Below, in pieces: positions 29,592 through 35,200 of a DNA stretch of 35,565 nt. Made by a program: the position numbers and the translations under genes. Position 1 is the first letter of the stretch; every line of letters begins with the position of its first letter. The notes beneath the pieces were generated by a model. It was not told the origin of the DNA, searched no databases, and was given only the letters and a program-made list of their open reading frames with translations. The DNA comes from Helicobacter pylori PMSS1 (GTDB lineage: Bacteria > Campylobacterota > Campylobacteria > Campylobacterales > Arcobacteraceae): assembly GCA_945883785.1 (NCBI GenBank), contig CAMCYD010000007.1, positions 1 to 35,565 of the forward strand, in the 5' to 3' direction.

Positions 29592-29721
29592 AATCCCATC
29601 ATACAAGGCTTTTGAGTAATACCAAATAAAATAAACCATATTTTTCTTTTCACCATTTCTATAAATCTCTCCATTATCAGCCATTTTATAGATAACTCTT
29701 CTGAGGTATTTTATTTCAATC
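29565..29721 (-). pseudogene. Possible remnant coding frame between the kinase and RhuM genes
   Basis: On the minus strand, a frame shifted from the end of the RhuM-like gene is open for about 52 codons (29721-29565). It reads like real protein (IKYLRRVIYKMADNGEIYRN, then EKKNMVYFIWYYSKALYDG). An ATG at 29684 would give 39 residues. It overlaps the last 27 bp of the histidine kinase gene. It might be the winged-helix-like end of a lost gene or chance; I do not recognise it. Confidence 0.25.
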
Positions 29722-30583
29722 TCCCCAAGATATCAAAAGTTCCTATTTCAAACTTTGAAAATCCAAACCATTTTTTACCCAAATCTTTCAAACTTGCCCC
29801 AATATGAAAAACCTCTTTTTTATCGAGTATTAAAAATCTATCGTGGGAGTTTTTAAATTCAATAAGTTCTATATTATGATACTGAGAAGTATATTTTTGA
29901 TAGTCAAGTTTGAGTTGTTTTGAGATATTTCCCGTATAGATTTTTATCCTCAGATTTGGATATTTACTAAAAAGTGTAAAAACACTTTCGTCAAGATAGT
30001 TATCTATAAGTACTACTTCACTTTTTGCACTGCCCAGTAAATCATTGATAAAAATATAAGCATCATAAGTTTCTCCATCAAAAAATATCCCTTGTTTTAC
30101 TTTAAGTGTTGTATCCTCAAGTGAATTTGAAATATTCTCCACTTTTGATTTTAAGAGTGTTACTTCATTTTCCAAAGATACAAACCTCTCATTTGTTATT
30201 TTATAAGAGTTGATAACATATCCATTTTGGATATAGTTTTTGAGAACGGATGTTGCCCATTGACGAAATTTGGTGGCTGTTATCGAATTTACTCTATACC
30301 CGATAGAGACTATCATATCGAGATTATAATGGTCAACATCCCTTTCAACATTTCTATTTCCCTCTTTTTGAACTACTCTAATTTTTTGAGTAGTTGGATT
30401 TTTTTCAAGCTCTTTTTGTTTGTAAATATTTTGAATATGATATGTGATATTGTTAGATTCAACATCAAAAAGTTCACCTAATTGTTTTTGAGTAAGCCAA
30501 AGTGTTTCACTCTTTAGAGATACTTTTAGCTCTAATTCCCCATCATTATAGACAACTATATTTTGATTATTTTGCTCAGTCAT
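29711..30583 (-). CDS. RhuM-family protein with PLD-like C-terminal domain
   Basis: Residues 1 to about 130 match the RhuM (virulence-associated YdhM) family: VVYNDGELELKVSLKSETLW, the DNA-binding-like LTQKQLGELFDVESNNITYHIQNI and YNLDMIVSIGYRVNS. Residues 135-165 look helical. From about 165 to 290 there is a second domain with FINDLLGSAKSEVVLIDNYLD and HDRFLILDKKEVFHIGASLKDLG, a phospholipase D-like pattern in which the HxK Lys is replaced by Arg. RhuM proteins are frequent passengers of restriction-modification loci; their biochemical role is not established. GAGGA precedes the ATG. A REP-like pair separates it from the kinase gene, so it probably has its own promoter. Confidence 0.72.
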   Translation of the reverse strand: MTEQNNQNIVVYNDGELELKVSLKSETLWLTQKQLGELFDVESNNITYHIQNIYKQKELEKNPTTQKIRVVQKEGNRNVERDVDHYNLDMIVSIGYRVNSITATKFRQWATSVLKNYIQNGYVINSYKITNERFVSLENEVTLLKSKVENISNSLEDTTLKVKQGIFFDGETYDAYIFINDLLGSAKSEVVLIDNYLDESVFTLFSKYPNLRIKIYTGNISKQLKLDYQKYTSQYHNIELIEFKNSHDRFLILDKKEVFHIGASLKDLGKKWFGFSKFEIGTFDILGRLK

Positions 30584-30783: not shown

Positions 30784-31908
30784 TTAAAACGGTATTTCTA
30801 TATCATCATAAGAATTAGAAAAAGATTCAATAGTTAAAAATCTTGTTTCTAAATTATATAAAATAATATTTTGCTTTTCTAATGAACTTTGTTTAAATAG
30901 TTCTACAAAATTTTCAAAAACATATACTGGAAATTGTTTTCTTTTCCAATATTTATAATTTCCTGATAGAAAAATTTGAAAAATATTTAATGGATTAATA
31001 TACTCTTCAAGTAAAGTTCTCTTTTGTAATAATTCCAAATCTTTTATAATTAAATTAACATTCATAATTATCTTTGAACTTTCTTCTCTTGAAGATAAAG
31101 CATCAGAAAAATATCTAGCAAATTGTAAATAAGTTTGTTTCTCATCATACTCAAATAGTTCAATTATATTATTTTCCTCTTCTTTTATACCTCTTAGTAT
31201 ATTTTGAAAAGAATTTATTCTAGTTATTGGATTTATTTCAATCATTTGATGTAAAATATTATTATATTTGAAAGAACAATCCATATCATTAATTATATTT
31301 TTAAATAATCTACCAATAAAAAATATTTCTGTTTGAAAGTTGTATATATTAGTTTTAAAATCATCAGGTTTTTCGCCACCCCACCAATTTAAACTAATAC
31401 TTTTTTCATCATCGTGTATAAATGCTTGTTGTTTACCAAATCCAAAATCAATTATTTTAACATTATGATTATTATCAACCATAATATTTGAAGGTCTAAT
31501 ATCACGATGTAAAATTGAATTTTCTTCTAAATATACAAATCCATCTATTACTTGCTCAAAAATGTTATTTATATTTTCAGGATATTTTTCAAGATAAATG
31601 TCTATTTCTAGCCCTTCTATAAATTCCATTACAATATAACCTGTAAAATGATTAGGATATAAATAATAATTAAAAACTCTTACGATATTTTTATGGTATA
31701 GAAGATGAAGCAATTTTATTTCTAACAAAAAATTCTTAAAATATTGTTCTTTTGGCACACCACTAATGGGTATATATTTTTTGCATACAAATTCAACATT
31801 TAAATCTTCATCTTTTAGTAAAACAGTTTTCCCTAAAGCTCCTTGACCAATTTCTTTTAAAAATTTAAAATCTTTTTGCCGTATAAATTTTATATCATCT
31901 TTATTCAA
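30784..31908 (-). CDS. Soluble eukaryotic-like Ser/Thr protein kinase linked to restriction enzyme
   Basis: This 374-residue kinase has no membrane segment and no PASTA repeats. Residues 14-265 form the kinase domain: the glycine loop IGQGALGKT at 20-28, Lys43/44 in VCKKY, E63 in helix C, the hinge VMEFIEG, the catalytic loop HRDIRPSN (134-141, D136) and DFG at 154-156. The usual Lys two residues after the catalytic Asp is Arg138, and the APE segment is replaced by WWGGEKPDD. The C-terminal 110 residues are helical and not recognised. It starts with TTG, directly after the TAG of the restriction-methylase gene, with GGAAGG inside that gene as ribosome site, so the two are translationally coupled. 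Very low GC content. Confidence 0.85.
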   Translation of the reverse strand: MNKDDIKFIRQKDFKFLKEIGQGALGKTVLLKDEDLNVEFVCKKYIPISGVPKEQYFKNFLLEIKLLHLLYHKNIVRVFNYYLYPNHFTGYIVMEFIEGLEIDIYLEKYPENINNIFEQVIDGFVYLEENSILHRDIRPSNIMVDNNHNVKIIDFGFGKQQAFIHDDEKSISLNWWGGEKPDDFKTNIYNFQTEIFFIGRLFKNIINDMDCSFKYNNILHQMIEINPITRINSFQNILRGIKEEENNIIELFEYDEKQTYLQFARYFSDALSSREESSKIIMNVNLIIKDLELLQKRTLLEEYINPLNIFQIFLSGNYKYWKRKQFPVYVFENFVELFKQSSLEKQNIILYNLETRFLTIESFSNSYDDIEIPF

Positions 31909-34659
31909 CTAAACACCTTCCACAATTTTAATCTCATCATCACTTAAATCATACAGTTTATAAACCATCTCATCTATTATTTTTTCATTTGTTGCACAAA
32001 GATTTTCTAATTTTTCCAGTTCTTTTTTAAGAGCTATTTCTCTATCAAAATTATTTGTGTTTTTTGCTTCATCAAAGAGGATTTTATAATCTTTGATTTT
32101 TTGTTTACTTTCTAAAATCTCATTAACAAGATTTATAAATGGTTGTTGTTTTTCTTTGTCAATTTTAACAACAGGTATTCTGTTAATAATTTGATTAGAT
32201 AGGTGCATTGTTCTAACAGCTTTAGCAAAAATAAATCTATAAATATACCAATTTAAAAGTTTTGAGTTAAGTAGTCCTAAAATAAATTTATTTGAAAAAT
32301 TGGCATTAAGTGTAATTTGTTGAATGGTATCCAAAATTACATATTGTGCAAAATTATCATTTACTACTGTTCCAGTAAGTTTTATATGGTCAATCGGATT
32401 CATAATATGTGCAATAATTTCTTGAAACAAAACACTATTGTCTCGTAAATATGAATTATCTGTTAGTTTTACATCTGTACTAAGAAATCCCTTGAGTCCT
32501 TTGATCTCATATCGTTGTATATTCGCACCCGCCAACACTTTCAATTTTTCATTATTTTTTACTTCTTTTTGAAACATTCCACCACGATTACTTTCAACTG
32601 AAATATTCAATAAGCTTAATTTATCTTTTTTGATTTTTAATGCAATAATGATTTCGTTTTGCTTTACACCATTTATAAAAAATCCAAACTCATCGTAAAG
32701 ATTTTTTTGAATATTTGCAATATTTATAAACTCACCTTTTTGAAGTACTAAGTTGTCATAATCTTCAAAAATATTATCTTTTCTTAATGAGTAAATGACT
32801 TGTTCAAGTTTTACTTCCTCCCAAACTTTACCACAATCAACAATACAAAAAAGTTCATTTTTAAATTTATCTCTTATGCTTTCCCAAGTTGATGAAAAAA
32901 TAAAGGGCTTTGGAATAATAAAACTATGAAGTCCATTTTCTTTTAAAAGTTTATGAGAAAGTAACATAAACAAAATCGCACTCTCTTTTGACTCTATTTC
33001 ATAATATTTTTGTTCATCATTTTCAAGTTTTGCCCCATACGGCGGATTACCAATAACAACATCAAAACTATTTTCACTAAATGGCATATTTAAAAGGCTA
33101 TTTGCACACACTATTTTTTCACTCAAATTTGTAAGCGATTTCCCTCTTTGAGCAGTTCGTAGCCAAAGACTTAGCCTTGCTATCTCAACCGCATCTTCAT
33201 TGATATCTACTCCGTAAAGATTGTGTTCTAGGATATTTGTCTCTATATCGTACAAACTCAAAAGTTCATTTTCATAGGCTCGTCTTAGCATATCAAGGTC
33301 ATTGTGTTCTTTTATCAAAAATTCTAGTGCTTGGTTTAGAAATGCTCCACTTCCACAAGCTGGGTCTAGGATTTTGAGGTTTAGGAGGTATTCTCTATAA
33401 GCATAGATATTCTGTAATGTTTGTTTCTCCTCTTTGGTGAGTTTTTTGGGATTTGCTGGGTTTTGTACATTTTGTAGGTTAAGTTCTGTTTTTTTATCTT
33501 CACAGAGTTTCCCTAAAGTGTTTTGGACGATATATTTTGTGATGTATTCAGGCGTGTAAAATACCCCATCTTTTTTTCTTTTTGATTTTGTTTTATCAAA
33601 TGCAATATCGTCTATATTTGACTGTATCTCTTCTAGGTCGGTGAGAGATTGCTCGAAGATATGCCCTAAGATATTGACTGAAATATCACTTGCAAAATCA
33701 TAGTCACTTAACTTTTGAGCTTCCATATCAAGAGAAATATCATCTATTTTGAGGCTATCTAGTAGCTCATCTTTTGCGAAAAGTCCTCCGTTGTATTTTG
33801 GTATTTGTAGTTTGTCATTTCCGTTGTTTATAGCATCGAAATAAAATTTATAAATATCATAAAGTGTATAGTTTGTAAAAGCTTGATTGGCAAAATGTTC
33901 TCGTATCTCTTTTATGGTGTTGTGTTTGAGGAGTTCTCTATCTTCTGCAAAAAGTATAAAGATAATCCTATCGCAAAGTTTTTGTGTAAGCCTTAGAAGT
34001 GTTGATTTTTCTGTTTGGTCATTATTTTTTACAATATTTTCAAAAAGATGAGTTCTAAATGTACTAAAATCTTTGTAGAGTTGTTTGCTTATTTCAGCTT
34101 CAAAGGTTGTTGATTTCTCTTTGAGTTTAAGTGGAATATCCTCTTTTATACTTTCAAAACTAAGAAGCAAATGGAGTTTTTTAAACTCATCATAAGTTAA
34201 ACTAAAAAGGTTAAATTTCTCATAAGCAGTTTTCTTATCAATATAAAATCGTAACTCATCAAAATTTGAGATGATGATATATTTACTATTTGTGTGGGAG
34301 TTGTGATAGTTAAATGCTTGGGCTTCGATTTGGTCAAGATTTTTTGTTTTTTGGTCTTTGAGTTCGATAACTCCTACAACTTCAGAATTTAAGATGATGA
34401 CACCATCGGCTTTTTTCCCATCTGTTTCGTTTTTCTTCTCTCGTTCAAGATTGAAACTTTGAGGATTTGTCATATCAAGAGTATATCCAAGGGTATTTTC
34501 AAAGATATCTCTTAGAAACCCATCTTGATATTTTTCCTCTTTTTGAGTTTTGATATAGTCTATTTTGGATAAAAACTCTTGATATTTAGCCCATCTAGGA
34601 GCTATTTTACTTTCATCTTGTGGAAAGTTTTTTAAAACTGAGGGTTGAAAGATTGGCAA
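31909..34659 (-). CDS. Type IIG-like restriction-modification enzyme (nuclease plus N6-adenine methylase)
   Basis: This is one 916-residue chain. The N-terminal region (about 40-140) has a PD-(D/E)xK-like nuclease pattern: D85 in KADGVIIL and E99-L-K101 in VVGVIELKDQ, with Q113 in IEAQAF. The middle has helical regions and FYTPEYITKYIV (about 355-380). The methylase has motif I DPACGSGAF at 432-440 and motif IV NPPYG at 538-542, the amino-methyltransferase form that modifies adenine. Residues 650-850 would be the target-recognition part (AGANIQRYEIKG, LGLLNSKLLNWYI), and 860-910 a coiled coil. The order nuclease-helical-methylase-TRD fits type IIG (Eco57I-like) enzymes; PglX is the alternative but is usually larger and lacks the nuclease. 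It starts with TTG, set by AAGGA 6 nt upstream. No separate specificity subunit is present. Confidence 0.86.
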   Translation of the reverse strand: MPIFQPSVLKNFPQDESKIAPRWAKYQEFLSKIDYIKTQKEEKYQDGFLRDIFENTLGYTLDMTNPQSFNLEREKKNETDGKKADGVIILNSEVVGVIELKDQKTKNLDQIEAQAFNYHNSHTNSKYIIISNFDELRFYIDKKTAYEKFNLFSLTYDEFKKLHLLLSFESIKEDIPLKLKEKSTTFEAEISKQLYKDFSTFRTHLFENIVKNNDQTEKSTLLRLTQKLCDRIIFILFAEDRELLKHNTIKEIREHFANQAFTNYTLYDIYKFYFDAINNGNDKLQIPKYNGGLFAKDELLDSLKIDDISLDMEAQKLSDYDFASDISVNILGHIFEQSLTDLEEIQSNIDDIAFDKTKSKRKKDGVFYTPEYITKYIVQNTLGKLCEDKKTELNLQNVQNPANPKKLTKEEKQTLQNIYAYREYLLNLKILDPACGSGAFLNQALEFLIKEHNDLDMLRRAYENELLSLYDIETNILEHNLYGVDINEDAVEIARLSLWLRTAQRGKSLTNLSEKIVCANSLLNMPFSENSFDVVIGNPPYGAKLENDEQKYYEIESKESAILFMLLSHKLLKENGLHSFIIPKPFIFSSTWESIRDKFKNELFCIVDCGKVWEEVKLEQVIYSLRKDNIFEDYDNLVLQKGEFINIANIQKNLYDEFGFFINGVKQNEIIIALKIKKDKLSLLNISVESNRGGMFQKEVKNNEKLKVLAGANIQRYEIKGLKGFLSTDVKLTDNSYLRDNSVLFQEIIAHIMNPIDHIKLTGTVVNDNFAQYVILDTIQQITLNANFSNKFILGLLNSKLLNWYIYRFIFAKAVRTMHLSNQIINRIPVVKIDKEKQQPFINLVNEILESKQKIKDYKILFDEAKNTNNFDREIALKKELEKLENLCATNEKIIDEMVYKLYDLSDDEIKIVEGV

Positions 34660-34825: not shown

Positions 34826-35200
34826 GGGGTTGACTTGGTATCGATTAGAGCAGTAAGTATTAGTTGCATGTCGATTTGGATATATCGTAAATCTATCCAT
34901 CGTTTTTAAACGCAAACAATACAAATTATACTCCTGCTTACGCTCACGCAGCGTAAGTTTAACAAACTTTAGGAGGCTTTCCGCTACTGATGCTATATAA
35001 GTAGATTTTTGGAAGGCTCATCAAATATAGCTTACTTTTGAAAGAGTGATTATTTTTCAAAAGGACATTTTAAATCTTAGCCTTGCAGTTGCTTTTGCGG
35101 GTTGAGAAGCTGTAAGGTGAAATTATTCAATCCTTCTAAACATGTAGACGCTGATATAAACTGTTTTAAGACTGGGGTTCGATCCCCCACAACTCCACCA
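34826..35200 (+). ncRNA. ssrA: Transfer-messenger RNA (tmRNA)
   Basis: This 375-nt RNA rescues stalled ribosomes with SmpB. The tRNA-like ends pair: GGGGTTG (34826-34832) with CAACTCC (35190-35196, one G-U pair), followed by an encoded CCA whose end is 35200. The T arm is GGGGTTCGATCCCC at 35174-35187. The mRNA part starts at GCA 34912 and stops at TAA 34954-34956, encoding the tag ANNTNYTPAYAHAA, close to known Campylobacter and Helicobacter tags (ANN...PAYA.AA). It is a one-piece tmRNA. The 3' end is a well-known integration site for islands and prophages. Confidence 0.95.

Follow-up and report, generated by a model that had tools for sequence, protein, structure and literature searches.

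The stretch analyzed here (the window) comprises positions 1 to 35,565 of contig CAMCYD010000007.1, from an assembly labeled Helicobacter pylori PMSS1 (GCA_945883785.1) with a GTDB lineage in the Arcobacteraceae. On its reverse strand, the gene for a type IIG restriction-modification enzyme (hereafter IIG; 31909..34659) is followed without a gap by a gene for a Ser/Thr kinase (30784..31908). We found that this kinase belongs to a family whose members end like the single-stranded DNA-binding protein (SSB) of bacteria. Sequence comparisons further indicate that the tight junction is a feature of the IIG gene, which has at its 3' end a slot that takes unrelated genes, termed payloads below. In our assessment, the kinase is fairly probably an autonomous, mobile, SSB-mimicking protein that was captured once in Campylobacterota in this exchangeable slot. 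The broader proposal has two parts, namely that an undescribed Ser/Thr kinase family wears the host SSB tail as an anti-phage sensor or effector in the SSB network, and that Campylobacterota IIG genes act as payload carriers with a built-in ribosome site; we regard it as having an even chance of being correct. Neither part was met in the open-licence literature we searched, which yielded no description of a type IIG payload slot and no kinase with an SSB tip.

A Ser/Thr kinase family with an SSB-like tip

The window kinase (TTG start, 374 amino acids [aa]) matches Pfam Pkinase (3e-29). Its kinase domain, delimited by Pfam, alignment and a structure model, spans residues about 10-211 (31276..31881, reverse strand) and resembles bacterial PknB/Stk1 structures; K43/K44, E63, H134-R135-D136, N141 and D154/G156 are invariant across 30 kinase relatives. 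A helical C-terminal domain follows (30811..31176, reverse strand). It is modeled with confidence (predicted local distance difference test [pLDDT] 89, predicted template modeling score [pTM] 0.81), and a search of the PDB returned no match for it (best E 1.0). The C-terminal part of the kinase likewise had no match in the phage and plasmid records searched, and a plasmid search with the kinase gave partial matches only, confined to the kinase domain.

The chain closes with a short tip (residues 367-374, ...DDIEIPF; 30787..30810, reverse strand) that is predicted to be disordered, with pLDDT <50 behind a domain at about 93-97. All 30 aligned full-length kinases have a C-terminus of acidic residues followed by a hydrophobic residue and Pro-Phe, the form taken by the C-terminal tip of SSB. 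Among 1339 open reading frames (ORFs) at the kinase loci, 30 have this ending and each of those is the kinase, while 0 of 47 other kinases do, and a search of the other payloads found it in kinases only. As a separate observation, a GHKL-ATPase payload (L178, 306 aa) bears an acidic, Phe-rich tail, SDYEDDAFDDFFDF, which recalls the acidic tails of some phage SSB proteins.

The tip also matches the SSB of the host. In the window, the kinase ends SYDDIEIPF, and the three SSBs of the host end DIDDDEIPF, DMDDIPF and DLDEPPF. Across genomes, residue -3, just before the terminal PF, is that of the host SSB in 21 of 22 cases, with 9.7 expected (permutation p 5e-6, ancestry ignored), in a set that excludes hosts whose SSB end was unreadable or whose best SSB match was a tail-less paralogue. 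Two hosts illustrate the match. A Psychrobacter kinase falls in a clade whose other members are from Bacteroidota, yet its tip has the isoleucine of its host's SSB, and in a Fusobacteriaceae genome the rare ending DDEFPF occurs in both kinase and SSB. The family has the hallmarks of a protein bearing the SSB C-terminal motif (SSB-Ct): an extreme C-terminus that is acidic, then hydrophobic, closes with Pro-Phe and is matched to the host. In SSB, DNA-maintenance proteins dock on this tip (PMC5872125, PMC10164576, PMC11981726). The kinase tip resembles SSB-Ct (DDDIPF; PMC5872125, PMC10164576) in its acidic and hydrophobic residues, terminal Pro-Phe, predicted disorder and host match, but sits on a kinase without an SSB fold. 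An earlier note on this DNA had recognized the Ser/Thr kinase and overlooked its SSB-like C-terminus.

Among known defense kinases, Stk2 of staphylococci and PD-T4-6 are likewise soluble Ser/Thr kinases with intact active-site residues, patchy and mobile. Their PADLOC models, however, match only the kinase domain (about 10-160) and leave the C-terminal domain and SSB-like tip outside; past the kinase domain we met no family-specific similarity to PD-T4-6 or Stk2 (best PADLOC match PD-T4-6, 9.5e-27, residues 10-158).

The payload slot behind the type IIG stop codon

The enzyme (TTG start, 916 aa) matches PADLOC REase_MTase_IIG (2.3e-146) and Pfam Eco57I (2.1e-23) and TaqI_C (2.8e-9). Its PD-ExK nuclease motif, D85...E99-L-K101 (34357..34407), is kept at all three named positions in 48 of 49 aligned IIG relatives, the remaining one having a gap there. 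All 49 retain the methylase motifs DPACGSG (432) and NPP (538), which lie in the window enzyme within motif I, DPACGSGAF (33340..33366), and the catalytic motif NPPY (33037..33048). The DNA-recognition region (target recognition domain), at residues about 560-830 (32170..32982), was delimited by TaqI_C (707-830) and by comparison of relatives. By its sequence, then, a single chain holds a PD-ExK nuclease, the motifs of an N6-adenine methylase and a recognition domain of the TaqI type, as in a type IIG enzyme; all these features lie on the reverse strand. The earlier assignment of the enzyme to type IIG is borne out, and the ORFs, their strand and the abutment of stop and start were as first described.

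At the junction, the IIG stop codon TAG (31909..31911) abuts the kinase start TTG at 31908. The enzyme's codons for V-E-G contain GGAAGG (31916..31921, reverse strand), a Shine-Dalgarno (SD) site with an anti-SD energy of -6.8 that is likely the ribosome site of the kinase; together these features support the translational coupling that the earlier note had proposed. The same kinase stands behind a IIG gene in two further genomes, G423 (kinase 88% identical, TGATG) and G362 (65% identical, TAA then ATG), so that three genera are represented. Because this abutting or overlapping junction recurs with the same kinase, it is more than chance.

The slot is not reserved for kinases. We surveyed 53 IIG relatives with a complete 3' end, a set that includes close kin (L182 and L195, with cores 97% identical). 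In 35 of them, the start of the following gene lies between -17 and +10 nt relative to the IIG stop, and other co-directional pairs in the same DNA lie that close in 24 of 91 cases (Fisher p 3e-6); on the upstream side of the IIG gene, 0 of 15 are coupled. The 35 payloads fall into 28 clusters without mutual similarity (BLASTP 1e-4). Many are of defense type, and many of the clusters match no known family. Those that can be named are LmuA of Lamassu, a NucC-like DUF6602 protein, DUF3800 (PDC-M04A), PD-T4-7, ApeA-type HEPN, DUF2971 (PDC-S31), a KAP NTPase, GHKL ATPases and TPR proteins. At the locus where the Lamassu nuclease LmuA is the payload (L159:3395-4438), no co-directional gene was found in the following 860 bases.

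What makes the slot usable appears to be written into the enzyme itself. The conserved IIG ending IVEG is mostly encoded GTG GAG GGN, which is an SD site. Median anti-SD energy is -6.8 at payload starts versus -0.9 within the same genes, and the C-terminal Glu is encoded by GAG in 25 of 32 coupled IIG genes versus 32% in gene bodies (p 1e-7). Uncoupled IIG relatives have a weaker site (median anti-SD -3.65; GAG in 6 of 15). Since the C-terminal codons of the IIG gene hold this site, a gene immediately downstream of the stop codon can be translated through coupling.

Distribution of the kinase and exchange of modules

Six of the sampled Campylobacterota genomes hold the kinase, directly behind a IIG gene in three and alone in three (G025, G450 and G024). 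Two copies are broken. The kinase of G362 contains an in-frame TAG, and its C-terminal end is on another contig (L060:1-860, L061:8147-8326). In G024 (L021:4430-7122), the solo kinase is split by a 454-aa transposase gene and followed by a PIN7-domain gene; the kinase seems dispensable there. At about 30 kinase loci beyond Campylobacterota, no relative of this IIG was found in the flanks (up to 8 kb, less at contig ends), whose content was mixed. The hosts of these kinases belong to many phyla, including Bacteroidota, Pseudomonadota, Bacillota, Spirochaetota, Acidobacteriota and Zixibacteria, and two of the kinases (L081, L085) appear by eye to adjoin other restriction-modification genes. The absence of this IIG from the loci outside the phylum, their mixed flanks and the three solo Campylobacterota copies argue that the kinase is autonomous. 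Its distribution is also very patchy (4 of 399 genomes of the order). The three IIG-linked kinases group in a single clade (support 100/97), a pattern suggesting that the gene was captured once and then spread.

These counts bear on the pairing of kinase and enzyme proposed by the earlier note. Recurrent pairing holds in three Campylobacterota genomes; pairing as a rule does not, given about 33 relatives without such a IIG nearby. The note had allowed that the pairing would be accidental if relatives of the kinase mostly stood away from restriction genes, or relatives of the enzyme mostly lacked the kinase. This is largely what we observed, as kinase relatives are mostly without the IIG, and the majority of IIG relatives have either a different gene or no gene there. 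Two further observations concern individual genomes. In G423, an AbiJ-type gene (AbiJ_NTD4 + DUF7014; L207:4626-5585), a further probable defense gene, lies 3' of the kinase. A genome bin from the same genus as the window, G004, gave 19 kinase-like matches, mostly with internal stops and possibly eukaryotic contamination.

Comparison of related loci indicates which parts move together. The window and G423 kinases are 87-88% identical, and the recognition regions of their enzymes are 18% identical (unrelated); nucleotide identity stays at 88% over a block that begins about 258 nt ahead of the kinase start and ends 8 nt past the kinase stop. Conversely, the recognition regions of L176 and G423 are 93% identical, whereas the payload is the NucC-like DUF6602 protein in L176 and the kinase in G423. 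L182 and L195 have core and payload in common and differ in recognition region. The kinase is therefore not bound to one recognition specificity, nor is the slot bound to the kinase, and on these sequence alignments the DNA-recognition domain and the payload swap independently. Variable recognition domains were already known from type IIG genes of C. jejuni (PMC4889913).

Beyond the payload, a RhuM-family gene (29711..30583, reverse strand), identified by profile matches and comparison of loci, follows the window kinase. RhuM-like genes, by eye also ORF6N-like, recur behind the payload; they do so in about nine loci, like a marker of the unit's distal end. On the other side, the unit is flanked by a transfer-messenger RNA (tmRNA) gene (34826..35200, forward strand). 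We considered the tmRNA gene's 3' end as an integration site and rejected it, since the 5' end is the one that faces the island and the IIG gene. Past the tmRNA gene, the contig end (35200-35565) appears by eye to hold remnants of transposases, perhaps the reason why the assembly breaks here.

Competing explanations and implications

An adenine methylase paired with a kinase invites comparison with MADS (MAD2 methylase and MAD6 kinase) and with type 2 BREX/Pgl (PglX and PglW). The window differs from both, as no other genes of those systems are seen and the methylase has its own nuclease. Scores also fall far short of the curated NCBIfam cut-offs (BREX_2_MTaseX 42.5/400 bits, PglW 18/990, MAD2 43/720, MAD6 62/460), and the neighboring ORFs offer no further BREX type 2 or Pgl candidates. 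The earlier note's view that this is neither PglX/PglW nor BREX stands, and these cut-offs together with the solo kinases led us to reject a dedicated methylase-kinase system of the BREX, Pgl or MADS kind. Closer in organization are the rlo/mlo ORFs of C. jejuni type I restriction-modification loci and EcoprrI-PrrC (PMC2610378), which likewise involve unrelated linked genes, some of them effectors, that vary between strains. There, insertion is within type I loci, and PrrC is an anticodon nuclease; here, the payload lies behind the stop of a single-chain type IIG gene whose last codons give the ribosome site.

The precedent of PrrC and the rlo genes (PMC2610378) supports a guard arrangement, in which the IIG enzyme silences its payload, a phage anti-restriction protein disables the enzyme and thereby releases the payload, and coupled translation keeps the two in balance. 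Strict stop-start coupling and the effector-like nature of several payloads (nuclease, HEPN, kinase) would fit. However, about 33 relatives of the kinase are solo, the kinase accompanies enzymes with unrelated recognition regions, and one enzyme family would need to recognize 28 unrelated payload clusters, so we judge this explanation unlikely. The second reading of the earlier note, a dedicated two-gene system in which the kinase phosphorylates the enzyme to control cutting, draws on the three linked copies, which share one kind of junction across three genera and form a single clade. Interdependence of the two proteins is not supported, because solo kinases and kinase-free enzymes predominate and unrelated genes occupy the same slot; we consider this reading very improbable. 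The kinase might instead be a host regulator of stress responses or DNA repair that reaches repair complexes through its SSB tail, has no role in defense and stands behind the IIG gene by chance. The host-matched tip and the solo copies amid housekeeping genes are compatible with such a role. Its patchiness within the order, its spread across phyla, the copies broken by an insertion sequence or a stop codon and its defense-type fellow payloads suggest an accessory mobile gene instead, making a housekeeping role quite improbable.

The reading we prefer, a mobile SSB-mimicking kinase captured in a payload slot, has points against it as well. The tip is imperfect in a few members of the family (L082 DVLPFT, L091 EKLPFN), and the permutation test for tip-host matching takes no account of shared ancestry. 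The spacing controls rest on simple ORF calling. Campylobacter-type IIG orthologues keep a conserved, fixed neighbor; most of them lie outside the 53 relatives, and their inclusion would lower the coupled fraction. On four plasmids from other phyla, distant IIG enzymes have no coupled payload, their next genes being 88-555 nt away. Because these distant enzymes are uncoupled and the Campylobacter-type orthologues keep their neighbor, the slot belongs to a single group of IIG genes. Enzyme and kinase, given their coupled expression, may still be functionally linked, and the anti-phage role is drawn from the families that share the slot and from analogy with defense kinases.

Judging by that company and analogy, the kinase is probably anti-phage. 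We speculate that its tip docks in the pockets where SSB-interacting proteins (DnaG, RecO, RecG, DinG) bind SSB; phage proteins with a pocket of this kind would be alternative partners. Docking would place the kinase at sites of replication or repair, where it may phosphorylate the docked proteins or be triggered when phage perturb them, and phage replication would be blocked or the infection aborted. Restriction would then form a first layer of defense and the kinase a second, independent one.

In bacterial DNA replication and repair, the SSB tail serves as an address label. If our reading is correct, a host-matched copy of this label on a mobile kinase would give an immune protein a new means of monitoring or attacking the replication machinery. 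The payload slot, in turn, suggests how unrelated genes can travel with a restriction gene without requiring their own promoter or ribosome site, and it offers a simple rule for the discovery of new effector genes, namely to inspect what follows the IIG stop codon.

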